A DNA stretch of 64,000 nucleotides from Niastella vici (GTDB lineage: Bacteria > Bacteroidota > Bacteroidia > Chitinophagales > Chitinophagaceae), in assembly GCF_002077945.1 (NCBI RefSeq), contig NZ_LVYD01000042.1, forward strand, positions 1 through 64,000, given 5' to 3'. Below the pieces are notes generated by a model that was not told the DNA's origin, did not search any database, and saw only the letters and a list, made by a program, of their open reading frames with translations. Below, one piece after another: positions 7,424 to 61,874 of the stretch. Each line of letters begins with the position of its first letter. Position 1 is the stretch's first letter. The position numbers were made by a program, and so were the translations under genes.

Positions 7424-7454
7424 AAAGGTTCAAGGTTTATTTTCTATTGCCAGC

Positions 7455-8261
7455 TCAGTCATTAACCGTGCGGCGGTGCGTGGTACCTTCCCGGGTTAAC
7501 CAGGCATCAGCATCTGAAGCAAACCCCTCATCTATGGCATTCGCCAGAACGCCCCTTCTGCGTTTTCTGTAAACGAAATAAAATATGATAGCCCCCAACC
7601 CAAGAAACCCAACTACGGTTTCCCCCGGGGTCATTTCCTTTTCTACAGGTTGGTTATACGAATAGGCAGACTGCGAATTAGCAGGCTGTGAATTAGCAGG
7701 CTGCGGCGCCTGGGCATTGTTCATAGCAGCGATCTCCGCCGCTTTTTTTGCCCGTACTGCATCACCGATGGTATTCTCGATCTCAATTACACCATGTATG
7801 AACATAGGATAGTACTGGTTCGCTTCAAACTCAGGCATCATTTTCTCTTTGAATATACGCTGGCAATCAGACACCGTAAGGTAGGCGCCCATACTATCAG
7901 CAGTTCTGATCCTCATTTCATTGGGATCAACCAGCAGCAATACCCGCACATCTTTCAGCGAATCGTTCGTACTCCATTTGTCTAAATATTGCCGGGCCGC
8001 TTCCTGACTGGTATAGGTTTCACCGGTCTTCGCATTCGTCAACGTAGGCAGGGTGATTATAACAATATCAAAACCTGTCATTTTTCGATAAACCTTTATA
8101 TGTCTTTCGAGCTGATCTTTTTCAGCCTTTGTAAGCCATTTGGCGAAATCATTCACCGCCCGGGCAGGCATGGGCCGGTCTTTGATAAAGCCAGCAGTCA
8201 TCCTTTGTGCAAAAGAATTGATGCTGCAAAGGAATACGGTCAGGATCAATAGGGTGCGCAT
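7455..8261 (-). CDS. TPM-domain membrane protein, third of the lemA cluster
   Basis: The 268-residue protein has a signal peptide (MRTLLILTVFLCSINSFAQ), then a TPM domain at about 25-150 beginning VNDFAKWLTKAEKD. A short Gln/Ala/Ser linker with the repeat PANSQ leads to a transmembrane segment near 215-235 and a basic cytoplasmic end. It lacks the glycine-rich tail of its neighbours. The frame is open to 8309, but the ATG at 8259-8261 gives a proper signal peptide. It is a divergent paralogue of the flanking TPM genes, and its function is unknown. Confidence 0.85.
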   Translation of the reverse strand: MRTLLILTVFLCSINSFAQRMTAGFIKDRPMPARAVNDFAKWLTKAEKDQLERHIKVYRKMTGFDIVIITLPTLTNAKTGETYTSQEAARQYLDKWSTNDSLKDVRVLLLVDPNEMRIRTADSMGAYLTVSDCQRIFKEKMMPEFEANQYYPMFIHGVIEIENTIGDAVRAKKAAEIAAMNNAQAPQPANSQPANSQSAYSYNQPVEKEMTPGETVVGFLGLGAIIFYFVYRKRRRGVLANAIDEGFASDADAWLTREGTTHRRTVND

Positions 8262-8339
8262 ACAATTTTCGATTGGGTTCAGGGTTCCAGGTTTATATAT
8301 CTTGAGCAATTAAGCTCTTTAGTTAGTTTGTTAGTTATT

Positions 8340-8381
8340 GAGTTGGTTAGTTTTTGGTAAACCTGATCAACTAACTAACTC
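8340..8381. repeat. Imperfect inverted repeat of TTAGTTAG-type sequence
   Basis: GAGTTGGTTAGTT (8340-8352) and AACTAACTAACTC (8369-8381) pair at 12 of 13 positions around a 16-nt loop. It lies in the gap between two TPM genes. Similar simple AACTAAC text recurs at about 6395-6450 after the M1 gene. Confidence 0.5.
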
Positions 8382-8398
8382 ATAAACTCAAAAACTTT

Positions 8399-9184
8399 CT
8401 ACCAGCTTCCACTGGCGCCGCCGCCACCGCTGCTGCCACCACCAAAGCCGCCAAAACCGCCACCACCACCGCCACTCCAGCCGCCGCCGCCCCAACCACC
8501 GCCGCCACTGCGGCCCATCATATTGCCCAGTATAAAGGGCCCTAACCAGCCTGAACCACGACGGCTCATAAAGCCACCGCCACCACCACGGTTGCGGCCG
8601 CCAAATATGATGATCATGACGATCACAAAAATGATAAAGCCGAACGGGATGGCGCTGCCGCTGCCTTTCCTTTTGCGATAATCGGCCGGGGCCTTGTATT
8701 CACCGGCAGCTGCTTTTATAATAGAAGCGGCTGCTTTTGACAACCCTTCATAATAATCGCCCGATCTGAAGTTGGGCGCAATATCATTCTGAATAATGTG
8801 ATTGGCTGTAATATCGGGGATCGCCCCTTCTAACCCATACCCTACTTCAATACGGATCTTATGGTCCTCGATGGCGGCCAGTATAAGCACCCCGTTGTTG
8901 GTTTTCTTATTACCAATGCCCCACGAACGGAATAATTTCACCGCATACTCTTCGATGGGATAATCGTCGAGCGTTTTGAGGAGCACAATGGCAACCTGGT
9001 TGCTGGTACTGTCATCGTAGGCAACCAGTTCCTGTTCTAACCGCTGTTCTTCTTCGGGCGATAATACGCCGGCAAAGTCATTGACCAGTTTCGGAGGATT
9101 GGGCCGTTGGGGAATATTTTGTGCCGACGCTAAAAACGACACAAATAGGAATATGGGAACGAGAAGGGCTTTTAATTTACTCAT
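8399..9184 (-). CDS. YgcG-like TPM-domain membrane protein with glycine-rich tail
   Basis: The 261-residue protein has a signal peptide (cleavage after ASA, about residue 21) and a TPM domain at about 30-150 (VNDFAGVLSPEEEQRLE). A transmembrane helix at about 178-196 is followed by a tail dominated by Gly, Trp and Ser ending SGGGGASGSW. This is the canonical YgcG layout, which in many bacteria sits beside lemA, as it does here. The role is envelope-associated but undefined. The gap to the upstream TPM gene holds two strong hairpins (9224-9268), which may separate or modulate the transcripts. Confidence 0.9.
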   Translation of the reverse strand: MSKLKALLVPIFLFVSFLASAQNIPQRPNPPKLVNDFAGVLSPEEEQRLEQELVAYDDSTSNQVAIVLLKTLDDYPIEEYAVKLFRSWGIGNKKTNNGVLILAAIEDHKIRIEVGYGLEGAIPDITANHIIQNDIAPNFRSGDYYEGLSKAAASIIKAAAGEYKAPADYRKRKGSGSAIPFGFIIFVIVMIIIFGGRNRGGGGGFMSRRGSGWLGPFILGNMMGRSGGGGWGGGGWSGGGGGGFGGFGGGSSGGGGASGSW

Positions 9185-9223
9185 TTCAAAAAGTATAATG
9201 CCTATCAGTTGATATCAGTTGCC

Positions 9224-9268
9224 CCCGACGTGTCGGGAGGTCCCCGGTTACCGGTAACTGGTAACCGG
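9224..9268. repeat. Two adjacent perfect hairpins between TPM genes
   Basis: CCCGAC-GT-GTCGGG occupies 9224-9237. CCGGTTACC (9244-9252) and GGTAACCGG (9260-9268) form a second stem with a 7-nt loop that itself repeats GGTAAC. There is no U-run, so this is more likely an RNA processing or stability element than a simple terminator. Confidence 0.6.
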
Positions 9269-9279
9269 CAACAATTTTC

Positions 9280-9741
9280 TTACCTGCCAAACACCATATC
9301 GTCGGGTAATTCATTTTTATCGTTTACACGGTCGTAAGGGAAATGGGTTTTTAACGCCTCTCCCACATCAGTTATCACCGCTTCAAGGGCCTCGGCAGGC
9401 GCCGCATTTTGAAAATGCTTTGTCATTACCGACACTTCCTCGTTCCAGAATGCCTGCCCAACCTTCTCATGAATTCCCTGGTCGGCCATAATGGCAAACT
9501 GGTGATCTTTCATGGCAACGTATACCAATACCCCGTTACGGTCTTTGGTAGCATCCATTTTAAGACCCCAGAATATTTCTGCGGCCCTGTCGAGGGGATT
9601 AACAAACCGGCAGCGGCTTTCGGTATATACCCTTATTTCGCCGCTGGTTTGCTGTTCGGCCTGCCGAATGGCATTCACGATGCGCTCCTGTTCCTCGCGC
9701 GTAAAAAATTCTTTCCTTTTTGAGAAGGGGAAAAATGCCAT
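9280..9741 (-). CDS. Small cytoplasmic TPM-domain protein
   Basis: The 153-residue protein has no signal peptide or membrane helix. After a short basic start (MAFFPFSKRKEFF) nearly the whole protein is one TPM domain, with TSGEIRVYTESRC near residue 32 and a later segment on acceleration of the domain's second half. This soluble subtype commonly follows lemA. Its start lies 10 bp after the lemA stop, so the two are almost certainly one transcript. The function is unknown. Confidence 0.85.
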   Translation of the reverse strand: MAFFPFSKRKEFFTREEQERIVNAIRQAEQQTSGEIRVYTESRCRFVNPLDRAAEIFWGLKMDATKDRNGVLVYVAMKDHQFAIMADQGIHEKVGQAFWNEEVSVMTKHFQNAAPAEALEAVITDVGEALKTHFPYDRVNDKNELPDDMVFGR

Positions 9742-9751
9742 GCAATTATTT

Positions 9752-10342
9752 TTAGAATTCTACTTTAGGAGCTTTTTCAGAACCTGCGTCAGCCGTGAAT
9801 CCTGTTTTTGTATGAAAACCGAACATACCGGCAAAGATGTTATTGGGAAAACGGCGAACAACCGAGTTGTAATCCTGTATGGCCAAGTTAAAGTCGTTAC
9901 GCGAAACCTTGATGCGGTTTTCGGTTCCTTCAATTTGAGCCTGCAGGTCCCTGAAGTTCTGTGTAGCCTGCAATTGCGGGTATTGTTCGGCAACCACCAG
10001 CAATTTATTCAATGCACCACCCAGCTGAGCTTGCGCCTGTTGAAATTCCTGAACCTTTTCAGGAGTAAGGTTATCGGCGTTTATATTTATTGAAGTTGCT
10101 TTTGCCCTTGCTTCAATTACTTTGGTCAGGGTTGTTTGTTCAAAATTGGCAGCGCCTTTTACGGTACTTACGAGGTTGGGTATAAGATCGGCACGGCGCT
10201 GGTAATCGCTCTGCACATTGTTCCACTTATTCTTTACACCTTCATCGAGGTTTACCATTCTGTTATAACCATTACATCCGCAACCACCTAAGATTAAAAT
10301 AAAGACCACCACAACGATTAGAACCAGATTACGAGATTTCAT
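9752..10342 (-). CDS. lemA: LemA family membrane protein
   Basis: The 196-residue protein has an N-terminal membrane helix or lipoprotein-type leader (VVVFILILGGCGCN) and then the conserved LemA helical core: NRMVNLDEGVKNKWNNVQ near residues 28-45, RADLIPNLVSTVKG, and later QLQATQNFRDLQ and ENRIKVSRNDFN. LemA proteins have a four-helix extracytoplasmic domain and no settled function. This is the first gene of a leftward cluster with four TPM genes; the lemA-TPM pairing is conserved across many phyla, which supports joint action in the envelope. Its promoter must lie in 10343-10544, shared with the divergent dehydrogenase gene, but I see no clear consensus box. Confidence 0.93.
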   Translation of the reverse strand: MKSRNLVLIVVVVFILILGGCGCNGYNRMVNLDEGVKNKWNNVQSDYQRRADLIPNLVSTVKGAANFEQTTLTKVIEARAKATSININADNLTPEKVQEFQQAQAQLGGALNKLLVVAEQYPQLQATQNFRDLQAQIEGTENRIKVSRNDFNLAIQDYNSVVRRFPNNIFAGMFGFHTKTGFTADAGSEKAPKVEF

Positions 10343-10544
10343 ATCTATTTAGAATTTAATTCTTATAAATGTACAATTTTTTGATACAATGTGCCTTTAA
10401 TTCATTTGAGTTACAAGCTGTTAACACCCCGGCAGCATTTATTGACCCTCTAACGCCCCCGGTGGCGATCACATTGTCAACATCGCCTTATTTTAGTCGT
10501 AGCGGCATGGTTTTCGTTACATCCTGGTTGTTAAATCTTATTTT

Positions 10545-11642
10545 ATGAAGCAAATGATCATTTACAGCGGTTTATGTATCGCGTTGCTTATCATGTGCTG
10601 CAACAAGAAAAAAGGGAACGACGATACCGCTACTTCAGCCGTACTCAAAGACAGCATTCTTACCAGCAAACTATCGCACCCCTGGGAAATTGTATGGGGC
10701 CCCGATAACTTCATCTGGATGACGGAACGCGGTGGTAAGCTGAGCCGGGTAAACCCGGCCACGGGCGCCGTTACAACCATTTTGACCATTGCCGAAGTGA
10801 GTGCCCAGGGCGAAGGCGGTTTGCTGGGAATGGCATTGCATCCCAACTTCGCCACTACCCCGCAGGTATTTGTTGCCTACGACTATATGAATGGCAGTAC
10901 TTACATCGAAAAGATAGTACGGTATACTTACAATGGTTCTACGCTTACCAGCCCGCAAATAATAATCGACAATATCAAAGCAGCGAGCATCCACAATGGT
11001 TGCCGCCTGTTGATTACGCCCGATCAAAAGTTATTTATCACTACCGGCGATTCCAATGATCAAACGCTGCCGCAAAACAAAAGCGCCCTCAATGGCAAGG
11101 TGTTACGACTGAACCTTGACGGTAGTATTCCTGCCGACAATCCAACACCCGGCAGTGCGGTCTGGAGCTTCGGCCACCGTAACCCGCAGGGACTGGTATT
11201 TGCCAATAACATCCTGTACAGTTCGGAGCACGGCCCCAGTTCAGACGACGAGATCAATATTATTGAAAAAGGCCGCAACTATGGCTGGCCCACAGTTATG
11301 GGATTTTGCAATACCAGCGCCGAACAAAGTTTTTGCAACGCCAATAACGTACGCGAACCGCTTTGGGCCTGGACGCCCACCATTGCACCCAGCGGACTTG
11401 ACTATTACGACAAGGACCAGATACCACAATGGAAACACTCGCTGTTGCTGGCGGTTTTAAAGGACAGCCGCCTGCTTCAATTGAAGCTGAATGCAGCCCG
11501 CACCGGTATCGATAGTGTTTTTGAATTCTACGTCAACAAATATGGCCGCATGCGCGATGTTTGTATTTCGCCCGAAGGGAAAGTATATGTTTGTACCGAT
11601 AACGGGGACGATGACAAGATCGTTGAAGTAAAGAAGAAATAA
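10545..11642 (+). CDS. PQQ-dependent sugar dehydrogenase (GSDH family) lipoprotein
   Basis: Probably oxidises sugars or related alcohols outside the inner membrane with pyrroloquinoline quinone; the actual substrate is not predictable. The 365-residue protein has a lipoprotein leader (MKQMIIYSGLCIALLIMCC), then a six-bladed beta-propeller of the glucose/sorbosone dehydrogenase type. Visible family motifs are HPWEIVWGPD (about 46), EGGLLGMALHP, FGHRNPQGL and SSEHGPSSDDEIN, with GRNYGWP in the last part. The His of HPWE and the Arg of GHRNPQ are in positions used for PQQ contact. No PQQ biosynthesis gene is in the window. It is transcribed divergently from lemA. Confidence 0.88.
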   Translation: MKQMIIYSGLCIALLIMCCNKKKGNDDTATSAVLKDSILTSKLSHPWEIVWGPDNFIWMTERGGKLSRVNPATGAVTTILTIAEVSAQGEGGLLGMALHPNFATTPQVFVAYDYMNGSTYIEKIVRYTYNGSTLTSPQIIIDNIKAASIHNGCRLLITPDQKLFITTGDSNDQTLPQNKSALNGKVLRLNLDGSIPADNPTPGSAVWSFGHRNPQGLVFANNILYSSEHGPSSDDEINIIEKGRNYGWPTVMGFCNTSAEQSFCNANNVREPLWAWTPTIAPSGLDYYDKDQIPQWKHSLLLAVLKDSRLLQLKLNAARTGIDSVFEFYVNKYGRMRDVCISPEGKVYVCTDNGDDDKIVEVKKK

Positions 11643-11669
11643 TTTATACACAGGCAGGCACAAATGATA

Positions 11670-11699
11670 AGCCCCGCTCAAAGGTTGGTGAACGGGGCT
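11670..11699. terminator. Hairpin between convergent genes
   Basis: AGCCCCG (11670-11676) pairs with CGGGGCT (11693-11699). It lies between the stop codons of the sugar dehydrogenase and the facing lipoprotein gene. The T-run is weak and interrupted, so termination in either direction is plausible but not certain. Confidence 0.55.
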
Positions 11700-11721
11700 C
11701 ATTCATTTATTTATAAACCGG

Positions 11722-12354
11722 TTATTGTTTCTTCAATGTAATGATCTGTACGGCGTGGTTTGTGGTCCTTTGTGTAAGACCCATGTTCAGCTCTACCTTA
11801 CTTTGGTCGACTGTCGCCCGCATGGTCATTGTATCGCCATTGAATGCCAGTTTGTAACCGCCGCCGGCCGACTGCGTAGTTCCGTTCGTTCCTACCGTGG
11901 TAAATACGCCGGAATTAACATAAATAGAATCGGCAGCAACCTTTTTATAAGTGGCCGATGTATTGGTTGACGGTATAACGGCTGAAATTGGCGCGTCAAG
12001 AGAATCGTCGAGTACACCGTTGGTATAAAAAAGCGCATGAGCTATTGCATCCATCGAATAACCGATATTGGTGCCGGTCATGGTAGAACCATCGAATTTG
12101 AGGGTACCGGTATTATTATCAGTTATATAATCGCTGGTGGTAACTGATGTGGCGTTATCGACGCCGTCGGTTATTTCAACAATTGAAGTGGTGATACCAT
12201 GCATGTTCAATAATTTCCAGGTTCCTTTTTCAGAACCGGTGCTGCCGGCATTGTTGGTACCGCCTAATGTATCTATGCTTTTTTCTTTTCCGCAGGAAAC
12301 GAGGAATAACAATACAATACTTCCGAGAAGCAGGAACGGGGTTTTATTTTTCAT
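11722..12354 (-). CDS. Lipoprotein of unknown function, paralogue of its neighbour
   Basis: The 210-residue protein has a lipoprotein signal peptide (LLFLVSC lipobox, Cys about 21). The mature part is rich in Thr, Ser, Asn and Gly and opens with a GTWKLLNMHG block, like lipocalin-type or beta-sandwich lipoproteins of Bacteroidota. It aligns along its length with the product of 12487-13137: GTW start, YKK-ADS motif, a GYKLAF/GCKLVF strand and a T-M-M ending. The two are a tandem duplication on the same strand with about 130 bp between. No function can be assigned. The terminator-like hairpin at 11670-11699 is on its downstream side. Confidence 0.75.
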   Translation of the reverse strand: MKNKTPFLLLGSIVLLFLVSCGKEKSIDTLGGTNNAGSTGSEKGTWKLLNMHGITTSIVEITDGVDNATSVTTSDYITDNNTGTLKFDGSTMTGTNIGYSMDAIAHALFYTNGVLDDSLDAPISAVIPSTNTSATYKKVAADSIYVNSGVFTTVGTNGTTQSAGGGYKLAFNGDTMTMRATVDQSKVELNMGLTQRTTNHAVQIITLKKQ

Positions 12355-12486
12355 TGTGCTATTTTAAAGTTTTGATTAGGGCAGAAAACTCACGCGCAAA
12401 AATACTATTTCGGCGTCATTAGTGCAATCCCTTATATGACAAACATGAGTGATTCGACGTTGCAGTTGTGGAAAACCATTAATTCC

Positions 12487-13137
12487 TCAGTTCTTTTGCA
12501 GGGTGGCCACCAATACGGCATGAATGGTGACTTTTGCCGGAATACCCTGGTAATCCTGCGTAGTGACCGTATCGTATACAATGGTCATTTTCATGGTATT
12601 GCCCGAAAACACCAGCTTGCAACCGCTTGGTGCGGAAGGCACCAGACCGCCGGTGAGCACATTCAGGAAGCCGCCATCCTGAAAATACAGCGAATCGGCG
12701 CCTATCTTTTTGTATCCCGAGGTAGCATTTTGAGCCGGAAGGGTCTGGTTCAGAGGTGTTGACAGGGAATCGAACAGTGACCCATTCATATAAACGAGGG
12801 TTTTGGCCGTGGTATTAACAGACATACTGATACCCGTGGCCGTCATATTAACGCTGTCGAATTTCACGGTTCCGGCATTATTCTGCGAAGTAAAATTGCT
12901 GGTGCTAATGCCTTTTATTGCCTGGCCGGCCTGGGAAAGTTCTGCGGTTTGAGACAGCGTGCCCTGAAGCGAGATAAAATTCCAGGTTCCCACTTCCGTA
13001 TTGGCCGTGTTGGGGATGGTATCGGCAGGTGTGGGACCGCCGGGGGGAGTAACATCGTTATTATGAATTTCCTTTTGACAGGAAGCCAGCGTGATCAAAA
13101 CGGCCAGAACGAACAGGAATGGGCAGTACTTTTTCAT
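12487..13137 (-). CDS. Lipoprotein of unknown function, paralogue of the next gene
   Basis: The 216-residue protein has a lipobox ITLASC near residue 20 (leader MKKYCPFLFVLAVLITLASC). A Pro/Asn/Asp linker precedes a beta-rich domain with the same landmarks as the 11722-12354 product (GTWNFISLQG, NNAGTVKFD, GYKKIGADSLYF). The open frame runs up to 13233, but the ATG at 13135-13137 places the lipobox correctly. The predicted site is the outer-membrane lipid surface. Its function is unknown. Confidence 0.75.
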   Translation of the reverse strand: MKKYCPFLFVLAVLITLASCQKEIHNNDVTPPGGPTPADTIPNTANTEVGTWNFISLQGTLSQTAELSQAGQAIKGISTSNFTSQNNAGTVKFDSVNMTATGISMSVNTTAKTLVYMNGSLFDSLSTPLNQTLPAQNATSGYKKIGADSLYFQDGGFLNVLTGGLVPSAPSGCKLVFSGNTMKMTIVYDTVTTQDYQGIPAKVTIHAVLVATLQKN

Positions 13138-13190
13138 AAATCCACAGTTTGTGATGACAAGAGTAATTACCGGGAAAACTATGCCATCCT

Positions 13191-13231
13191 TTAAAAAAGA
13201 AATGCCACGCCCAAAAGGTACGCGGCATTTC
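13191..13231 (-). terminator. Rho-independent terminator downstream of pgk
   Basis: On the minus strand GAAATGCC (13224-13231 side) pairs with GGCATTTC (13199-13206 side) and is followed by TTTTTT. It would stop leftward transcripts from gapA-pgk just before the lipoprotein gene. Confidence 0.8.
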
Positions 13232-13271
13232 ATCTGAAATATTATTATTTATTTTGGCCAGATGGAACTTA

Positions 13272-13322
13272 CCATGGCAAAATTTTCATTGGAATTAAGT
13301 CCTAATGAAAATTTTGCCATGG
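13272..13322. repeat. 51-bp near-perfect palindrome in the pgk 3' untranslated region
   Basis: Two perfect 19-bp arms (13272-13290 and 13304-13322; outer end CCATGGCAAAATTTTC) flank a 13-nt loop. The pairing continues imperfectly for about 12 bp beyond (AGATGGAAC against GGATGAAAC). It sits between the pgk stop codon and the terminator at 13191-13231. Confidence 0.85.
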
Positions 13323-13347
13323 ACGTTTCATCCTAAAATTAGTGAAC

Positions 13348-14547
13348 TTATTTTTTCACCGCGGCAATACCCGGTAATTCTTTTCCTTCAAAGAATTCGA
13401 GCATGGCGCCGCCGCCGGTACTAACGTAACTAACCTGGTCGGTATAACCAAACTGGTTAACTGCCGCCACAGAATCGCCGCCGCCTACCAGGGAGAAAGC
13501 GCCGTCCTGGGTAGCTTCGGCCACTGCGGTAGCAATGGCTTTTGTGCCATGTTGGAATTTATCCATCTCAAACACGCCCATTGGGCCGTTCCAGAGAATG
13601 GTCTTTGACCGTTTGATCACATTCGCAAACTGGGTGCAGGCGTTTGGGCCAATGTCGAGCCCCATCCAGTTATCAGGAATATTATTGCTGGGGGCGTTGG
13701 AAGTAAGGGCGTTGGCATCGAATTTATCGGCGATCACTGAGTCGGAAGGAAAATGCAGGCAAACGCCTTTGGCTTCCGCTTTTTTCAACAGTTCGCGGGC
13801 AGTATCGATGCGGTCGTCTTCGCAAAGGGAATTGCCAATGGCGCCACCCTGTGCTTTTTCAAACGTATAGGCCATACCACCGCCGATGATGATATCGGTT
13901 GCTCTTTCGAGCAGGTTTTCGATGATGAGGATCTTGTCACTTACTTTAGCGCCGCCAATGATGGCAGTGAATGGTTTTTCGGCATTGTTCATTACTTTTT
14001 CGGCGCTGGCCACTTCGCTTTCCATCAGCAAACCGAACATTCTTTTTTCGCGGGGGAAGAATTGTGCGATCACGGCAGTGGAAGCATGCGCGCGGTGCGC
14101 TGTGCCGAATGCGTCGTTCACATATACATCACCGAGTTTGCTTAACTTTTCAGCAAAAGCGGCGTCGCCTTTTTCCTCTTCTTTATAAAAACGCAGGTTT
14201 TCGAGCAACAGTACTTCACCGGGTTTTAATGCAGCAGCTTTGTCAACCGCATCTTTACCAATGCAATCACCGGCAAACTGTACGTTGATGCCACCCAACA
14301 ATTCAGAAATATGGCTTATCAGGTGTTTCAAAGAAGATTTTTCTTCGGGTCCTTCCTTGGGACGGCCGAGGTGGCTCATGAGTATTACGCTACCGCCGTC
14401 GCCCAGGATCTTTTTTATGGTTGGAACCGCCGCTTTTATGCGGGTATCGTCGGTAATGGCGAATGTTTTTTTGTCAAGCGGAACGTTAAAATCAACCCGG
14501 ATCAGTGCTTTCTGACCCTTGAAGTTATATTGGCTGAAAGTAGACAT
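13348..14547 (-). CDS. pgk: Phosphoglycerate kinase
   Basis: Cytoplasmic glycolytic enzyme that transfers phosphate from 1,3-bisphosphoglycerate to ADP. The 399-residue protein has family-standard length and motifs: [12 protein letters not shown] near residue 14, [24 protein letters not shown], and [11 protein letters not shown] in the nucleotide domain. It lies 138 bp downstream of gapA on the same strand, the usual glycolytic pairing. The intergenic RNA contains a 12-bp inverted repeat (14569-14650), which could set different levels for the two products. Confidence 0.98.
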
Positions 14548-14568
14548 GAAGAAGTGTTTTTAAAAAAG

Positions 14569-14650
14569 TTAACCACAAAGTTCATTGATAGCTAAGGGTG
14601 GCTTTAGAGTATCTCCAGGCATTACCCGCTGTCAACAGCTTTGTGGTTAA
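14569..14650 (-). repeat. Perfect 12-bp inverted repeat in the gapA-pgk intergenic RNA
   Basis: TTAACCACAAAG (14569-14580) and CTTTGTGGTTAA (14639-14650) enclose 58 nt. The arms would close a large stem-loop 22 nt upstream of the pgk start. There is no terminal T-run. Possible roles are RNA processing or attenuation. Confidence 0.7.
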
Positions 14651-14685
14651 TCAGGAATAGCTGAAACTAATCCTGCGGTTATTTA

Positions 14686-15726
14686 TTAAGCTTTTGCTTT
14701 TTCTTTTGCAGCGCCTTTATTGATCAGTTTTGCAAAATAGTTCACGGTGCGAACGAGTTGGCTTACATAGCTCATTTCGTTATCGTACCAGCTAACAGTG
14801 CGAACGAGTTGGGTATCGCCTACTGTTTGAACACGTGTTTGCGTACCATCGAATAAAGAACCGTAATGAATGCCAATGATATCGCTGCTTACAATTTCAT
14901 CTTCGGTATAACCAAAGCTTTCATTGCTTGCGCTTTTCATGGCTGCATTTACTTCTTCAACAGTTACTTTTTTGCTTAATACAGCGGTAACTTCAGTTAA
15001 AGAACCGGTAAGGGTTGGAACGCGTTGAGCAGAACCGTCTAATTTACCTTTCAGGTTAGGTAATACCAGGCCGATGGCTTTGGCAGCACCAGTGCTGTTA
15101 GGAACGATGTTTTGTGCAGCAGCGCGGGCGCGACGCAGGTCACCTTTTGGATGGGGTGCATCCTGGGTGTTCTGGTCGTTGGTATATGCGTGAATGGTGG
15201 TCATGAGACCGTTAACGATACCAAATTTTTCATCGAGCACCTGAGCCATAGGGGCCAAACAGTTGGTGGTACAGCTGGCGCAGCTGATCACTGTTTCGGT
15301 ACCATCGAGTATAGCGTGGTTAACATTGAACACGATAGTTTTGAGATCACCGGTTGCGGGTGCAGAGATCACTACTCTTTTAGCACCAGCGGTGAGGTGA
15401 GCTTCAGCTTTTGCTTTATCGGTGAAGAAACCTGTGCACTCCAGCACTACGTCTACATCATGCTCTTTCCAGGGAATTTCAGCAGGGTTCTTTTGGGCGT
15501 AAATTTTTACTTCATCGCCGTTTACTATAATAGAGTTGTCGGTGCTTTTTACTTCAGCGTCGAAACGACCCTGTGCGCTATCATATTTCAGGAGGTGGGC
15601 AAGTACTTTTGGACTTGTGAGGTCATTGATAGCGACTACATCGATGCCATCCATTTTATAAATCTGGCGATATACCAACCGGCCAATACGACCAAAACCG
15701 TTGATCGCCACTTTAACTGTGCTCAT
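14686..15726 (-). CDS. gapA: Glyceraldehyde-3-phosphate dehydrogenase, type I
   Basis: NAD-dependent oxidation and phosphorylation of glyceraldehyde 3-phosphate. The 346-residue protein has the Rossmann start [11 protein letters not shown] (residues 6-16) and the active-site block SCASCTTNC with catalytic Cys152. WYDNEMSY lies in the C-terminal half. It precedes pgk on the same strand. TACCTTAG just upstream of the start resembles a -7 box with one change, but no good -33 element is present at the expected spacing. Confidence 0.98.
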
Positions 15727-15953
15727 GATCTGGATTTTTGTGTTAGTTAAAAATTGCGGGGGCTAAGGTACAATTTTGGTTGTAATTGGGTTGATGAAAT
15801 TTGTGGTTTAGGCTAAACTTATAGCTGACATTTGTTTATGAAACAATACCCTACTTTTTGAGGGGGCTTTTAAAGGAACCTGAAAGCAAATGGAAGCGAG
15901 CGGAAGAAAACGCGCAACAACAAGAAACCCGGCTAACATTCGTTAATGGGGAT

Positions 15954-16469
15954 ATGAGATATTTTTTGATGATGGTTTTGCTCCTGGCAAGTTCCTGCGG
16001 GTTGTATAGCCAGGGAAAGCGATGCACTTTTGCTTTTGAGTCGCTTATTTTGCCCGACAGCATAACCTCGCTGCAACTCCTTGATACCATAAAAAACATT
16101 CCATTAAAAGCATATAACCGGAAAGGCAGGATACCGCGTTTTATTAAAGAGGCATTAAATTGCTGGACGGGTGGCTTTGATATAGCGAATCCGGGTCATG
16201 CTTTCTATATCTCCGATGCGGTGGGATGGTGGCCTTTACCACATAGGCAATTAATGTATCTGGGATTAAGCGATCATTATATGTTAATGGCCTACAAACA
16301 TGGCGGCATTGGGTTTAATTGTCCGGTCATATTTATCAAATTTGACAATAAAAAGATCGTTTCAGTATGGTATTGGATGTGGTTTGATAAAGAAATGAAT
16401 ACAAAAGAGAACATATTACAAAGTTTAAAGAGATTTCCCGAATGGCCGAATCGCCATTACTTTCTTTAG
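15954..16469 (+). CDS. Exported protein of unknown function
   Basis: The 171-residue protein has a signal peptide (MRYFLMMVLLLASSCGLYSQ). An LASSC lipobox is possible, but SQG cleavage is equally likely. The mature domain is rich in aromatic residues: WTGGFDIANPGHAFYISD, VGWWPLPHRQLMYLG, VWYWMWFDKE. I do not recognise the family. The frame is open from 15858, but the upstream part is charged and would bury the signal peptide, so 15954 is chosen. It ends 14 bp before the first tRNA-Glu promoter. Confidence 0.65.
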   Translation: MRYFLMMVLLLASSCGLYSQGKRCTFAFESLILPDSITSLQLLDTIKNIPLKAYNRKGRIPRFIKEALNCWTGGFDIANPGHAFYISDAVGWWPLPHRQLMYLGLSDHYMLMAYKHGGIGFNCPVIFIKFDNKKIVSVWYWMWFDKEMNTKENILQSLKRFPEWPNRHYFL

Positions 16470-16490
16470 GGGCGACTCCCCCTACCTTTG
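16461..16490 (+). promoter_or_regulatory. Upstream promoter of tRNA-Glu
   Basis: TACCTTTG (16483-16490) is a perfect -7 box; TTTC (16461-16464) 18 nt upstream is an imperfect -33. It is the first of two tandem promoters, 90 bp before the second. Confidence 0.55.
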
Positions 16491-16549
16491 CGAGAGTATT
16501 GAGCAGAAGGATCTTTTTTGAAAAATATTTTGAAAGAAAGCGATTTTTT

Positions 16550-16580
16550 TTTGGTGAAATAAAGGCGATCCCTATCTTTG
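16550..16580 (+). promoter_or_regulatory. Proximal promoter of tRNA-Glu
   Basis: TTTG (16550-16553), a 19-nt spacer and TATCTTTG (16573-16580) match the consensus exactly. The mature tRNA begins 16 nt after the -7 box, leaving a very short 5' leader. Confidence 0.85.
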
Positions 16581-16595
16581 CACTCCCAAAAACGA

Positions 16596-16670
16596 GCCGC
16601 GTTCGTCTAAGGGCTAGGACACCACCCTTTCACGGTGGTGATACGGGTTCGAATCCCGTACGCGGTACCA
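16596..16670 (+). tRNA. tRNA-Glu (anticodon UUC)
   Basis: A complete cloverleaf can be drawn. The acceptor is GCCGCGT/ACGCGGT with a G-U first pair. The anticodon stem CCACC/GGTGG holds loop CTTTCAC with anticodon TTC at 16629-16631. The T-arm is GGGTTCGAATCCC, and the discriminator A plus CCA is encoded at the 3' end. A terminator follows at 16696. Its 3' end is echoed twice nearby (16735-16762 and 24600-24614). Confidence 0.95.
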
Positions 16671-16740
16671 GGAAATTCCAAAGAAACATACAAGGTCCCA
16701 GGCTGAAAAGTCTGGGATTTTTGTTTTTGGGGCCTACGGC
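16664..16740 (+). repeat. Direct repeat copy A (tRNA-Glu 3' end plus terminator)
   Basis: The stretch starting GGTACCAGGAAATTCC matches 24609-24676 with three mismatches over the first 58 bp and partial agreement beyond (GGGCCT). Together the two copies bracket the 8-kb respiratory-module block like attachment-site remnants. Confidence 0.7.
16696..16728 (+). terminator. tRNA-Glu terminator, member of a dispersed hairpin family
   Basis: TCCCAG (16696-16701) pairs with CTGGGA (16712-16717) around a loop GCTGAAAAGT, followed by TTTTTGTTTTT. The same core recurs at 24641, 31277 and 33611. Confidence 0.85.
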
Positions 16741-16762
16741 AGGTTTTCGAACCCGTGCGCGG
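16735..16762 (+). repeat. Degenerate copy of the tRNA-Glu T-arm and acceptor
   Basis: TACGGCAGGTTTTCGAACCC and the following GTGCGCGG resemble the tRNA's TACGGGTTCGAATCCC and GTACGCGG, with small insertions and one deletion. It lies 65 bp past the intact tRNA and cannot fold as a complete tRNA. Confidence 0.55.
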
Positions 16763-16775
16763 AAAGAGATGTTGG

Positions 16776-16831
16776 GGATCAGGTTGAAATTTTGGGGGAT
16801 TTAGGATCAGGTTGAAATTTTGGGGGATTTA
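16776..16831. repeat. Exact tandem duplication of a 28-bp unit
   Basis: The unit beginning GGATCAGGTTGAAATTTTGG occurs at 16776-16803 and again at 16804-16831 with no difference, immediately upstream of the transposase fragment. Perfect identity points to a recent event. Confidence 0.85.
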
Positions 16832-16874
16832 TTAGAAAGTAGTTGTTTTGCAGGCAATAAAACGGGTTTGAACA

Positions 16875-17159
16875 TTGGAAAAGGACAGGGAAAAAGAATT
16901 ATTAGGTTTTTTTTTACCATCAGGGACACTTGAATATTTTGATATAACTCATTTTGTAAAGGATAAGGAAGGCCTGGTATTGTTTTTAGAAGAAAAGAAT
17001 CTTCCACCTGCTGAGTACGCAGGCCAAACGCTTCACTCCAAAGGATTTTATCCGGAAGTCCGTGTACAAGACTTTCCGATTCGTGAAAACAAAGTAGAAT
17101 TAAGTATAAAGCGCCGCCGAGAAGGCCACTTCCCTGGAATCCCTGTGCCCTTTAAATAG
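16875..17159 (+). pseudogene. ISAon1-family transposase N-terminal region, truncated remnant
   Basis: The 94 residues match the small N-terminal protein of ISAon1-type insertion sequences: ELLGFFLPSGTLEYFDIT, a central LEEKNLPPAEYAGQ, SKGFYPEVRVQDFPIRENK and the basic KRRR block. After KRRR the expected continuation is replaced by a short unrelated end. The catalytic transposase frame that normally follows is absent; the next sequence is the tail of a leftward operon. It is therefore a decayed mobile-element fragment, lying just inside the tRNA-Glu end of the proposed island. Confidence 0.7.
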
Positions 17160-17203
17160 AAAATCAAAATAGAAAGATTTCCGCCGGTGGATCAGAGAGG
17201 TAG

Positions 17204-18088
17204 TTATTCCGCTGCCTGTGTACCCAGCTTTTTGAGTTTCCATATCTGAACTATTAAATAAAGCAGCACAATCCACACAACAAAGAATATTGAAAAGCTC
17301 GTTATTTCCAGCCAAACAGGGGCTAAGCCTCTTCTTGCAAACAGGGTTCTTCTATTAAAGTCAGATGCATATATGCCGGGCACACCCCAGGGCACTGTCA
17401 GTTCGGCCGTTATATTTCCATATGCATCATTGTCTTCCACTTTGGCAATTAAGGTTATGTTTCCCCTGGCATCGCCGGGTAAACTGTCTCTTTGAAAATC
17501 CGCGGCCACAGTACCCAAAGAATCGGTAGTATAAGCAGGTGTTTCGTTAACGTTAAGGTCTGCATTCAATCTTTTAATTGCGACTTTAATATCCGCGCCT
17601 TTAACAGGCACCCATACACTGTCGCGCAATTCCTGCAGGGTGGCAATGATCTTCTTTCCTGCGATGGTATCAATTTTTATTTTGGACTTTGTAATATCCA
17701 GATCGCTGCTGGTTGACTTATATAATCCAGTAGCTGCTGAAACAACGAAAAACGATTGCTTTGAAGACCGGTTCCAGGCATCTTTTGCAGCAGGGGGTAT
17801 AAATAATACGGCCTCGCCGTTGCGATCTGAAACGGCTTTGCCCAGTAGGTTAGCCGGCGCATCGGCAGAAATATAAAAACTGACCGGTATACCCGCAACC
17901 GGTTTAAATTTCCCATCGATCTTTGCCTTTGTATTGACTTTTAAATACTGAACCTGGTTATTATTGTTAAAATACCCGGGATTTAGAATTAAGTCGTGCG
18001 TTGCATTCTGGGCAAACAGCAACGGATCGACCAATAAAACCACCAGTACTGGTAATATGATATTTTTAAGCATTCTCATGCTGTTCAA
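17204..18088 (-). CDS. Membrane-anchored periplasmic protein, last gene of the respiratory module
   Basis: The 294-residue protein has a signal peptide (cleaved near LLFAQ), a periplasmic part of about 220 residues with predicted beta-sandwich, Ig-like character (PVAGIPVSFYISAD, SDRNGEAVLFIPP), and a C-terminal transmembrane helix at about 262-283 with a short basic cytoplasmic end. I do not recognise a named family. Its start overlaps the NrfD-like gene by 23 bp, so translation is probably coupled. A partner or structural subunit of the membrane complex is inferred from position only. Confidence 0.75.
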   Translation of the reverse strand: MNSMRMLKNIILPVLVVLLVDPLLFAQNATHDLILNPGYFNNNNQVQYLKVNTKAKIDGKFKPVAGIPVSFYISADAPANLLGKAVSDRNGEAVLFIPPAAKDAWNRSSKQSFFVVSAATGLYKSTSSDLDITKSKIKIDTIAGKKIIATLQELRDSVWVPVKGADIKVAIKRLNADLNVNETPAYTTDSLGTVAADFQRDSLPGDARGNITLIAKVEDNDAYGNITAELTVPWGVPGIYASDFNRRTLFARRGLAPVWLEITSFSIFFVVWIVLLYLIVQIWKLKKLGTQAAE

Positions 18089-57896: not shown

Positions 57897-58214
57897 ATGC
57901 CCCAGCACCTCTGGATAAAAATGGCCAATCTTGTCTTCGAGCTCGAAAAAAAGCTTTCCACTTCACAGCCCTCTACGGGCATTGTTCGAAATATAGACCG
58001 CATGAAGACCGTGCTGGAAGAGGCCGGGCTCCTGTTGCTCAATCCCCTGGGCGAACCGTATAATGAGGCGCGTACCGACCTGGAAGCAAGTATTACCGGG
58101 GAAGCAACCGGCAAACTCCATGTGCTGGACGTTATTAAACCCATCGTATACACCCAACAGGAAGGAAGCCGTTCCTTATTGCAAAAGGGCGTGGTGATCG
58201 TAGGTAATAAATAA
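57897..58214 (+). CDS. Minimal GrpE-like nucleotide exchange factor (predicted)
   Basis: The 105-residue soluble protein is half the length of normal GrpE. A helix at residues 1-45 (LVFELEKKLS, VRNIDRMKTVLEEAGLLLL) leads into a domain resembling the GrpE beta-wing: NPLGEPYNEARTDLEASI, then VIKPIVYTQQEGSRSLLQKG and a final VVIVG. The long N-terminal dimer helices of GrpE are missing. It lies 14 bp before an Hsp70 gene. An in-frame TTG at 57858 adds 13 residues, but the ATG is preferred. The GrpE relation rests on pattern and context, not a search. Confidence 0.6.
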   Translation: MPQHLWIKMANLVFELEKKLSTSQPSTGIVRNIDRMKTVLEEAGLLLLNPLGEPYNEARTDLEASITGEATGKLHVLDVIKPIVYTQQEGSRSLLQKGVVIVGNK

Positions 58215-58228
58215 AATAATTGCTATAT

Positions 58229-60751
58229 ATGTCGTCGACTATCAATTTTGCCATCGATCTGGGCACTACCAACTCCCTGATCGCAAAGGCGAATAACGGA
58301 AGTGTGGATATTTTCAAGAACCCCTCAGGAATGAAGGTGACCCTGCCGAGCGTGGTAGCCTTCCGCAAAGACCGCATTCTCATTGGTGACAAAGCACGGG
58401 AATATGTTGAAAAGGACCCCGCCAATGTATTTGCTGCTTTTAAAAGAAAGATGGGTACGGGAGAAAGCTTTTTTATTCCCAACAACGGTTCCTTTAAAAC
58501 GCCCATCGAATTAAGCACGATCGTTCTGCAGGAATTGAAAAACTTCATTTTTACCGGCGAAACCCCGGCCAGCGTGGTCATTACCATCCCTGCGAGTTTT
58601 GATACCGTACAAAGCAACGCCACAAAAGAGGCGGGCTATGCCGCGGGGTTTCGCGAGGTACTGTTGTTACAGGAACCCATAGCCGCCAGCCTCGCGTTCG
58701 CCAACAAGGAAGGCAAAGCCGGCATGGAAGGGCAATGGCTGGTATATGACCTGGGTGGCGGTACCTTTGATGTAGCCCTGGTCGTTATTGACGACGACGA
58801 AATGAAGGTCATTGACCATGAAGGTGATAATTTCTTTGGCGGCGTTGATTTCGACAACGGCATCATCACGCAATTGTTCATCCCTTACCTCGAAGGCCGG
58901 TTCAACATCAGTGACCTTTCTTCCAAAATGCTCAGCGCAAATGGCAGGTATAACAAGTTGTACTATCAGCTCATCTATAAAGCCGAAGAAGCGAAGATCG
59001 GTTTAAGCAGTCATACCAGTGTAGATATTGAATTCGATTTTACCGATGAGGCCGGCGAAACCCATGAGGTATATTTTTCAATCACCCGCGACCAGTTCGA
59101 GGGCATCATCAGGGAGCGCATTGCCGCCTCTATTTCGTTCATCCGGAATTTGCTGAGCCGGAATAACCTGCAGCCTTCAGCTATTTCTGAAGTGGTGCTG
59201 GTAGGCGGCAGCACCTATATACCCCTGGTAAGAACCCTGCTGACACAGGAACTGGGCATTAAGGTAAATACCTCCATTGACCCCACTACGGCTGTTGTGG
59301 AAGGTGCAGCCTGGTATGCAGGCGGAAGGCCAGGCAAGGCAGAACCGGCGCCGGCAGCCCAACAATCGGCAAGCACCCCTTCAGGAAGCAATGTACCGAA
59401 CGCTACGGCTATTGAAGTAAAAACCGCTTACCAGGCAAATAGCCGGGACCTGGAAGAATATTTAGCCGCCACCATCAAAAATGCGCCTGCCGGCAGCAAC
59501 TACCGTATTACGCGTTCAGATGGCGGGTTCGACAGCGGTCTTAAACCCGCAGCAGAAAAGATCAGCGAAATGTTGTTGCTGCTGCCAAACAGCCTGAACA
59601 TCTTCAGCCTGAAACTATTCGACAAACAAGGATTCCCGTTACAGGTATCCATTCCCGAGATCATGATCGTACAGGGGAAATTCTCTATTTACGGGCAGCC
59701 CCTGCCCCACGATATCTGTCTCGAAGTGGATGATACCGACAATAATACCACCCATCTTGAACTGATCTTCGAGCGGAATGCCATTCTTCCCATCAAGAAA
59801 TCGATCACAAAAACCCTGAGCAGGACCATCGTTAAAGGAAGCGATGACCAGTTGCTCATAAACGTGCTCGAGGGTAGCCGCTATGCATCGCCGTCATCGA
59901 ACCTGCCAATAGGCATTGTAAGTATCACCGGCAGGCAGCTCAAAACCGATCTGGTAAAAGGTTCCGACATAGACCTCACTTTCGAGATCAGCGAAAGCCG
60001 TGATATAACTGTGACTGCCTATATCAGCATGATCGACGAAGAATTCAAACAGGCCTTCAGTCCTTCTTCCCGCTCGGTGAACATTACCCGTCTTCAACAG
60101 GAGACCGACTACCTGCACCGGGTAGGCAAACGGCAACTCGAGAAGCTGTTGAAGCAGGAGAAGTATGAAGAAGGCGCGGCCTTGCAACAAGCCCTGAAAG
60201 AACTGGAAGTTATCCAGGAAAAACTGCGGAACCTGTCAACTGATGATGTAACAGATACCAAATACCAGCTCGACGATCAAAAGCGGCGGCTGGCGCAGGT
60301 AATTGATTCCACAGAAAAAGACGACCAGTTGCTGGAGCTGAAAGAGGAATACTATGACAAAAGGGAGTCCCTGAGGTACCTGATCGAAAAAACGGGCGAC
60401 AAGAATATGCTGCAACGTTATGAGCACATGAAGGCCGAAGAAAACACCTGGATCAACAGCTGCAGCACGCAATACCTGCGGTTAAAGATCAGCGAAATGG
60501 ACCGGCTTTCCTGGGACATCAGGAAAAAAGACATTTCCTATGTTACCAGCATATACATGTATTATTCCATGAAACCCGACGATGCCTATAGCAACCTCAG
60601 CGAAATAAGGTTACTGAAGAAGCGCGGCGATGAAGCGCTGACCAGAAGGAACCCCGATGAAATATTAAGCATTGTATACCGCATGTACGACCTGCTCATC
60701 GATAAAAACCAGGGCGATGAAACCATGAAAGGTACGGGGCTCAGCCGCTGA
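58229..60751 (+). CDS. Atypical Hsp70-family chaperone with inserted domain and extended C-terminus
   Basis: The 840-residue protein has a full DnaK-type ATPase domain at 1-365: FAIDLGTTNSLIA, VITIPASFD, LVYDLGGGTFDVA, VVLVGGSTYIPLVR. The conserved DnaK linker (VLLLDVTPL type) is absent. Instead there is an Ala/Ser/Pro linker at about 368-390 and an extra domain of about 100 residues (AYQANSRDLEEYLAA onward). A substrate-domain-like beta-sandwich lies at about 500-625. About 200 C-terminal residues are helical/coiled-coil without the usual DnaK tail. A TTG at 58220 is a weaker start. Confidence 0.88.
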   Translation: MSSTINFAIDLGTTNSLIAKANNGSVDIFKNPSGMKVTLPSVVAFRKDRILIGDKAREYVEKDPANVFAAFKRKMGTGESFFIPNNGSFKTPIELSTIVLQELKNFIFTGETPASVVITIPASFDTVQSNATKEAGYAAGFREVLLLQEPIAASLAFANKEGKAGMEGQWLVYDLGGGTFDVALVVIDDDEMKVIDHEGDNFFGGVDFDNGIITQLFIPYLEGRFNISDLSSKMLSANGRYNKLYYQLIYKAEEAKIGLSSHTSVDIEFDFTDEAGETHEVYFSITRDQFEGIIRERIAASISFIRNLLSRNNLQPSAISEVVLVGGSTYIPLVRTLLTQELGIKVNTSIDPTTAVVEGAAWYAGGRPGKAEPAPAAQQSASTPSGSNVPNATAIEVKTAYQANSRDLEEYLAATIKNAPAGSNYRITRSDGGFDSGLKPAAEKISEMLLLLPNSLNIFSLKLFDKQGFPLQVSIPEIMIVQGKFSIYGQPLPHDICLEVDDTDNNTTHLELIFERNAILPIKKSITKTLSRTIVKGSDDQLLINVLEGSRYASPSSNLPIGIVSITGRQLKTDLVKGSDIDLTFEISESRDITVTAYISMIDEEFKQAFSPSSRSVNITRLQQETDYLHRVGKRQLEKLLKQEKYEEGAALQQALKELEVIQEKLRNLSTDDVTDTKYQLDDQKRRLAQVIDSTEKDDQLLELKEEYYDKRESLRYLIEKTGDKNMLQRYEHMKAEENTWINSCSTQYLRLKISEMDRLSWDIRKKDISYVTSIYMYYSMKPDDAYSNLSEIRLLKKRGDEALTRRNPDEILSIVYRMYDLLIDKNQGDETMKGTGLSR

Positions 60752-60752
60752 T

Positions 60753-61874
60753 CTATTTATGTTTTGGATGACGTTTTATTTTATAAATGAACGTAGGTGT
60801 ATCCGCGACAGCTTTTTTTATCGGAGTGGTGGAACCCGGTTCTACCTCAGTGGTACCCTCCTGGCTATGCATCAGCGAATCGAATAAATGCTGGTCGATC
60901 TTGTATATTGGTGAGTTTTGACTTTTATAGTAATAGCTGGAACTCGATGATGAGTCTGATCGGCAGGTAGCTATTCTGGCTATTGCTATAATGATGATCA
61001 AAACAATTTTCCAGGGCGCAGTTGATGATGAGGAGGAGGAACTATTGCTTACGCCCCTGCCCGGCTCAGGCATACCAAGGGATTCCATTTCCTGCAGTTT
61101 TTTGGAGAGCTGGTCTTTCACATTCGGCGAAACGGCCAGCAATATGGCATTTTCCATCCAGTTTCTGGCGTACGACCGGTTGCGGACATTCGCATTAAAA
61201 ACATCAATGCAGGCATTCATCATGCAATAGGCATATTTATCCCTGATGGGGGCAAACCTGCCCTGCGGCAGCAGCTGTATCATTCTGATGTAATTGAACT
61301 CCATCAGGGCTTTAAGCTGTGCGGGGGTTACACTGCCGGCAGCTTTCCGCTTTTTATCCTGTGCAATAAAACGCTCGAGGGTGGCAATATTGTCCATAAT
61401 AATACGGATGACCGTATTCCAGGCCTTTTCCGTATCGCCGGGAGTCATCAGCAGACTGTTGCTCATTAAAGAGGTCATTCCATCTTCATCTGGTTGCTGA
61501 AAACAACCCTTCGTGAAAGCAGCGAAGGAATGACAGAAATACGGACTTACCCATTGAATAAATTGTTCCTCTTTATACAGCGGATTGTTCCCGAATTTCT
61601 CTTTCTTTCCCATCCCTGAATGTTCCAGAAAACCCAGTAATACGGGGTCGTCCCCTATTGCACTGTGATAGGTAAGGGCGTCTTCCTTCAACAGATCATC
61701 AAAATATTTGATAATATCATTCTTTGTAAAAGGCTTTCCCTGCAAGTCGATGGTAGTTTCGCCACTGAGCTCCAGTTCTGCAAACAGTTTTTTTCTTCCT
61801 AACTGAATGGCTTTTTTATCGAGGGGGCCGGATATAGTTTCGCCAGTGAAGGTGCTTGGTGACAAATATTGCAT
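60753..61874 (-). CDS. Unknown protein with C-terminal membrane helix, convergent to Hsp70
   Basis: The 373-residue protein has an all-helical N-terminal domain of about 265 residues (GPLDKKAIQLGRKKLFAELEL, FCHSFAAFTKGCFQQP, WMENAILLAVSPNVKDQLSKKLQE). A poly-Ser linker leads to a transmembrane segment (WKIVLIIIIAIARIA, about 290-304), a second Ser/Tyr run and a basic tail. I do not recognise a family. Its stop is 1 bp from the Hsp70 stop, so the 3' ends meet tail to tail without a terminator, and antisense interference is possible. Confidence 0.72.
   Translation of the reverse strand: MQYLSPSTFTGETISGPLDKKAIQLGRKKLFAELELSGETTIDLQGKPFTKNDIIKYFDDLLKEDALTYHSAIGDDPVLLGFLEHSGMGKKEKFGNNPLYKEEQFIQWVSPYFCHSFAAFTKGCFQQPDEDGMTSLMSNSLLMTPGDTEKAWNTVIRIIMDNIATLERFIAQDKKRKAAGSVTPAQLKALMEFNYIRMIQLLPQGRFAPIRDKYAYCMMNACIDVFNANVRNRSYARNWMENAILLAVSPNVKDQLSKKLQEMESLGMPEPGRGVSNSSSSSSSTAPWKIVLIIIIAIARIATCRSDSSSSSSYYYKSQNSPIYKIDQHLFDSLMHSQEGTTEVEPGSTTPIKKAVADTPTFIYKIKRHPKHK

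Follow-up and report, generated by a model that had tools for sequence, protein, structure and literature searches.

A divergent Hsp70 lacking canonical J-contact residues, with GrpE-like and putative membrane partners, in Niastella vici

The locus and its three genes

The window analysed here, the whole stretch of 64,000 nucleotides at positions 1 to 64,000 of contig NZ_LVYD01000042.1 of Niastella vici (assembly GCF_002077945.1), carries three adjacent genes that encode a miniature GrpE-like protein (mini-GrpE), a divergent Hsp70 and a third protein that we call C1. The original prediction, made from the sequence alone, had paired the first two as a possible separate chaperone machine. The pair is as described, with open reading frames (ORFs) of 105 and 840 codons on the plus strand and 14 bases between them, and the start of the mini-GrpE at 57897 agrees with the starts in close homologues. 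C1 converges on the Hsp70 gene from the right, leaving one base between the two. Two points go beyond the earlier prediction, namely this third partner and the loss from the Hsp70 of the site at which J-proteins are contacted. The features are as follows (NBD, nucleotide-binding domain; SBDbeta, beta part of the substrate-binding domain).

57897..58214, plus strand: mini-GrpE, 105 aa; two short helices and a beta-wing, without the long N-terminal coiled coil of GrpE
58229..60751, plus strand: divergent Hsp70, 840 aa
58241..59323, plus strand: Hsp70 NBD, about residues 5-365; equivalents of DnaK K70, E171, D194 and T199 kept
58613..58681, plus strand: part of the lost J-contact face; S129, L145, Q148 and I151 at DnaK R151, R167, N170 and T173
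58805, 59159 and 59315, plus strand: further lost J-contacts; K193 for E217, R311 for D326 and Y363 for Q378
59414..59698, plus strand: beta-rich domain (about residues 396-490) inserted where DnaK has its linker, after the NBD and before SBDbeta
59702..60073, plus strand: SBDbeta-like sandwich, about residues 492-615
60083..60694, plus strand: extended helical lid region, about residues 619-822 (AF2 model)
60753..61874, minus strand: third partner C1, 373 aa; begins with a domain of about 90 aa, followed by more of the N-terminal region, a single predicted membrane helix and a short tail
61605..61874, minus strand: N-terminal domain of C1; resembles a J-domain by eye but has no HPD, and gives no significant result when compared with J-domains by profile
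60963..61019, minus strand: predicted membrane helix of C1, residues 286-304, ending IATC (hydropathy)

The best Pfam HSP70 stretch in the large protein covers residues 8-365 (E 2.8e-67), and the NBD with catalytic residues by which the Hsp70 superfamily is recognised is present, as predicted. An SBDbeta and then a helical lid follow; the VIA alignment runs through SBDbeta to residue 618, and the lid beyond it is visible in the AF2 model only. The DnaK equivalog of NCBIfam (TIGR02350) is not reached, with 226.3 bits against a cut-off of 822.55. The original prediction was also right that the standard linker is missing, the conserved hydrophobic VLLLD of DnaK not being found in our alignments, and that an extra domain is present, which both the AF2 model and the alignments place between NBD and SBDbeta, where the linker would be, and which is well conserved. 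Identity over the NBD is 32.7% with E. coli DnaK, 34.4% with the organism's own DnaK, 34.8% with HscA and 32.5% with HscC, so that by pairwise NBD identity, which is not a tree, the protein is not clearly nearer HscA or HscC than DnaK. Parts of it are Hsp70-like; linker, J site and partner set it apart from DnaK, HscA and HscC.

For the window mini-GrpE by itself Pfam gave no match, the cut-off of PF01025 not being reached, and single-sequence and PDB sequence searches returned nothing relevant. Among 27 homologues, four match PF01025 weakly (best E 0.016). When a mini-GrpE profile was compared with a single GrpE sequence, P was no better than 0.033, and the first profile-profile run against GrpE gave P 0.0021; mean column identity of the family is 34% (24 rows). 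The seven best VIA matches of the AF2 model (pLDDT 93) are all GrpE, aligned to residues 81-187 of chain 9a81_A and 87-195 of 1dkg_B. The GrpE fold that had been proposed is thus found, with its beta-wing on short bundle helices, and of the description as a beta-wing with one short helix only the helix count changes, the model having two. The long N-terminal dimerising coiled coil of GrpE is absent from the 105 residues in the structure alignment. From the modelled fold we infer that the protein may exchange nucleotide on its partner Hsp70.

Conservation of the genes and loss of the J-contact face

Twenty-four loci found through the mini-GrpE in titled genome records (Chitinophagaceae, other Chitinophagales, Saprospiraceae, Neolewinella, Flavobacterium, a Cytophagales assembly and others) have the Hsp70 adjacent in 24/24 cases and C1 adjacent in 21/24; two of the remainder (L021, L024) end inside the Hsp70 and L018 is without C1. 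A set of 35 loci found through the Hsp70, which overlaps the first and is not additive to it, has the mini-GrpE adjacent in 35/35 and C1, by profile, in 32/35, the other three (L125, L126, L127) having divergent neighbours with a similar N-terminus by eye. Gene order varies: mini-GrpE, Hsp70 and C1 lie in line in 15 of the 35, C1 precedes the in-line pair in 10 and is convergent in 7, with no hit in 3. Since the three genes stay together though rearranged, we argue that they form one system. Within the flanks fetched, no fourth family occurs in more than 8 of the 60 pooled loci. A neighbourhood search for a J-protein or client conserved with the pair, proposed with the original prediction, yielded C1 as the conserved gene, and a J-protein beside the system in only three of the 35 loci. 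These J-proteins, of about 300 aa and divergently oriented, all belong to one genus (L123:13321-14514, L164:3185-4084, L168:8209-9093); in L123 the J-protein is followed by a small protein that is CbpM-like by eye. L018 (12791-20026), the only one of the 24 loci to show flanks yet lack C1, has MoxR/vWA-type neighbours by eye (with an IRHHG-start protein), and a C1 assigned to it in the first clustering was a spurious FGE fragment and is not counted.

At E <= 1e-100, weaker matches being left out of the counts, the Hsp70 occurs in 6/296 sampled genomes of the phylum and 32/294 of the family. The mini-GrpE occurs in 33/294 of the same family sample, including all 32 Hsp70 genomes, and the extra one (G434) is an assembly 76% complete, so that co-occurrence in other genomes is borne out. 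Two genomes of the same genus (G494, G538) have neither gene, and the system is accordingly accessory. A mobile origin was considered and set aside, no relatives of the mini-GrpE being found on viral contigs or plasmids. Other contigs of the N. vici genome carry a single canonical DnaK, a single canonical GrpE, three J-proteins that are intact and one copy that is interrupted, which makes the pair a second, separate set. The original interpretation is supported in these respects, with the role as a chaperone machine inferred from sequence.

We take R151, N170, T173 and D326 of DnaK to be J-contacts, and R151, R167, N170 and D326 presumably also serve interdomain contacts with the linker and SBDbeta. 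Passages of PMC8215388 name R167 and Q378 as partners of the aspartate of the HPD motif, and E206, D211, E217 and D477 as pairing with basic residues of the J-domain. Not one of 173 family sequences keeps any of R167, N170, T173 and Q378 (0/173), and all four are kept in 30/30 canonical Bacteroidota DnaKs (loci obtained for 30 of 40 genomes with a match). E217 has become K or R, a charge reversal, in 154/173, D326 has become R in 154/173 (canonical DnaKs have D in 23/30 and N in 7/30), and R151 is S in 168/173. HscA and HscC of E. coli, whose NBDs lie at a similar distance, keep all of R151, R167, N170, T173, E217, D326 and Q378. The 173 sequences are related, with near-duplicates between sources included, so that their number is not one of independent events. 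Judged by these alignments, it is an Hsp70 family that appears to lack the contact points through which ordinary J-proteins switch Hsp70s on.

A sister Hsp70 comes from one locus (L218) in another family of the phylum; it has the same length, the insert at the same place by eye, and a J-face likewise lost, with N, E, Q, V and F at R151, R167, N170, T173 and Q378. No mini-GrpE was found there by profile. Its neighbours (L218:4914-12526) are a 492-aa protein, a coiled-coil-like protein, a kinase-AAA fusion, a TerB-like protein below the Pfam cut-off and a DUF6804 protein, with type I restriction-like genes recognised by eye; the 492-aa protein starts NPYR-like, its C-terminal stretch is hydrophobic and ends Cys-Glu, and no J-domain match was found in it. 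This one locus hints at a wider group of Hsp70s without a J site and with membrane-anchored partners.

The third partner C1 and the favoured explanation

Pfam and NCBIfam scans place C1 in no family above cut-off. By a hydropathy threshold, 113 of 122 C1 sequences (duplicates included) have a membrane helix, mostly near residue 270-310 but more C-terminal in one group whose proteins are longer; the tail after it measures from 1 to more than 500 residues and in one L020 copy contains an FGE-sulfatase domain (E 6.1e-60). We assume that the N-terminus lies inside, because the partners are cytosolic. C1 is the least conserved of the three proteins in the broad alignments made, with a mean column identity of 14% over 29 rows, rising to 44% over 29 rows in the N-terminal domain. 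A [KR][LI]ATC-like motif closes many of the helices, its cysteine standing straight after the helix and in several cases at the extreme C-terminus. N. vici has one C1 gene; tandem paralogues stand beside a single Hsp70 in L020 (five, 6774-13565) and L029 (four, 12826-17606).

The first 90 residues of C1 resemble a J-domain by eye, with an NP.ELLG-like start in some members, a KK..L helix, and an acidic residue and L at the place of HPD, the HPD motif itself being absent from the alignment. Comparison of C1 with J-domain profiles by hhalign gave P 0.021, 0.082 to 0.45 according to profile and mode, and 0.23 (with 121 of the 122 C1 sequences, P0296 left out, plus four divergent ones), in the register expected; an alignment with several wrong rows and four others skipped gave P 0.1 and 0.26. 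Among 713 ORFs, a hidden Markov model of diverse J-domains ranked one C1 first after three true J-proteins, in the expected register (E 2.2), and a narrower J profile ranked the first C1 tenth and outside that register. A PDB sequence search with C1 returned no J-domain. That C1 is a proven J-protein, as the look of its N-terminus led us to expect, is unsupported by these profile tests; we claim only that C1 is, as far as sequence tells, the constant partner of an Hsp70 that lost its J site.

Sequence and models show that the ATPase residues of the Hsp70 are intact, that the gene just upstream encodes a partner of GrpE fold, and that the conserved neighbour has a single predicted membrane helix. 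The most economical and most likely reading is that the Hsp70 cycles while tethered to the membrane, with an exchange factor of its own and with C1 recruiting or triggering it. With somewhat better than even confidence we favour a dedicated three-component machine in which C1 recruits or drives the Hsp70 instead of HPD J-proteins. The beta-wing of the mini-GrpE would open the nucleotide cleft of the Hsp70, and C1 would hold the Hsp70 to the inner membrane, the N-terminal part of C1 (about 285 residues in the window protein) lying on the cytosolic side. C1 would do the job of a J-protein, bringing the Hsp70 to its client and triggering hydrolysis through an interface without HPD and the R167 pocket; the extra domain in the linker's place is probably part of a rewired coupling, and the client or signal is probably linked to the variable C1 tails. 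Only tentatively do we extend this to a machine without any HPD-J-domain trigger, in which the J face was erased, a membrane-anchored protein, possibly an HPD-less J-domain descendant, co-evolved another drive, and the miniature GrpE resets the cycle. Several observations weigh against the favoured explanation. The main caveat is that several changed NBD positions may reflect the altered linker and not the loss of J-proteins, because they also touch linker and SBDbeta in DnaK. Among less telling contacts, D211 is also absent from the organism's own DnaK, HscA and HscC, and E206 is R in HscA; D477 has become E in 143/173, retaining its charge, and P419 is retained in 172/173. The pair R56-E264, which we take to be a second bridging pair, is lost (E at 56 in 164/173, Y at 264 in 141/173), and ordinary peptide binding is in doubt because the SBDbeta groove is altered (F426 to K/R in 162/173, G468 to K/R in 171/173). 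As for C1, PF00226 (DnaJ) matched none of 25 scanned N-terminal stretches (one, L124, off target and several starting upstream), and 16 of 150 column shuffles equalled its score against J-domains. The three canonical J-proteins of the genome could still act.

Rather unlikely, in our estimate, is that C1 is a dedicated client or receptor and no J-equivalent, with Hsp70 and mini-GrpE an assembly factor or conformational switch for the C1 family and hydrolysis triggered by the client or by the inserted domain in cis. C1's low conservation beside that of the mini-GrpE (14% over 29 rows against 34% over 24), its tandem paralogues by one Hsp70, its variable tails with the FGE-sulfatase domain, the want of matches to J-domain profiles and the well-conserved insert at the linker place would all fit, yet a co-chaperone, too, would be expected to stay strictly with its partners while the gene order changes, and the N-terminal domain of C1 is more alike than the whole protein. 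It is improbable that we are dealing with a stress chaperone still using the ordinary J-proteins, its NBD changes only compensating the altered linker: intact HPD J-proteins are encoded in the genome, and the one-genus J-proteins and CbpM-like neighbour noted above point the same way, but the comparably distant HscA and HscC kept the seven contacts, and E217, a J-contact according to passages of PMC8215388, is charge-reversed in 154/173. Distinctly improbable is membership in a wider group of conflict or signalling systems that employ an Hsp70 and resemble the GTPase-centred ones described by Kaur et al. 2020. The sister Hsp70 in L218, with its surroundings, its likewise lost J-face and its similar length, the patchy distribution and the recurrence of DUF6804-type small membrane proteins in 8/60 and TerB-like proteins in 4/60 loci (counted from clusters, the Pfam check covering L025 only) speak for it; PADLOC gave nothing convincing (best E 0.0082), and the lack of a fourth widely conserved gene in the 60 loci and of relatives of the mini-GrpE on viral contigs or plasmids speaks against it.

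Relation to known systems and accessory neighbours

With DnaK-DnaJ-GrpE the system shares an Hsp70 NBD with catalytic residues, SBDbeta, a lid and a GrpE-fold partner; it differs in a mini-GrpE without the coiled coil, a domain in place of the linker, lost J-contacts and a third partner that is a predicted membrane protein of no known family. Pam16 is an HPD-less J-like protein that acts together with an HPD-bearing protein and an ordinary mtHsp70; C1 would resemble it in having a possible J-like domain without HPD at the membrane, its homology to J-domains not being established. HscC with DjlB/DjlC and HscA with HscB in E. coli are likewise specialised Hsp70s with dedicated partners. Passages of PMC8215388 suggest transmembrane clients for HscC and hold that HscA and HscC do not interact with GrpE; these two keep their J-contact residues, whereas here the partner has a GrpE fold and no HPD J-protein partner is present. 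In gene arrangement the system is like MxDnaK2 of Myxococcus xanthus, a second Hsp70 with the GrpE homologue MXAN_6672 encoded directly upstream (PMC11019930, in part). The GAP1-N2 GTPase systems (Kaur et al. 2020; PMC7159879, in part) similarly have accessory HSP70 and GrpE encoded near each other, along with a partner fused to DnaJ or TPR; they centre on a GTPase and have been described for the most part from actinobacteria and firmicutes. Here, by contrast, a fourth gene such as a GTPase is not conserved (none in more than 8/60 loci, a GTPase profile not having been run). Since specialised Hsp70s paired with GrpE are already in print in the passages of PMC11019930 and PMC7159879, the three-gene system is a variant within a known kind, and no published description of it was found in the literature searched, which mostly excluded subscription papers.

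According to passages of PMC8215388, J stimulation was lost on changing HPD in all the Hsp70 systems tested. A natural Hsp70 family that has intact catalytic residues and a GrpE-fold partner to itself, and in which R167, N170, T173 and Q378 are all missing, would show another way to trigger an Hsp70, and the system would test the dispensability of the linker, the R167 pocket and the GrpE coiled coil in the Hsp70 cycle.

The DUF6804 and TerB-like neighbours lie in the Flavobacterium locus L025 (12782-14170) and in other loci, and a CpXC zinc protein is also encoded in L025.
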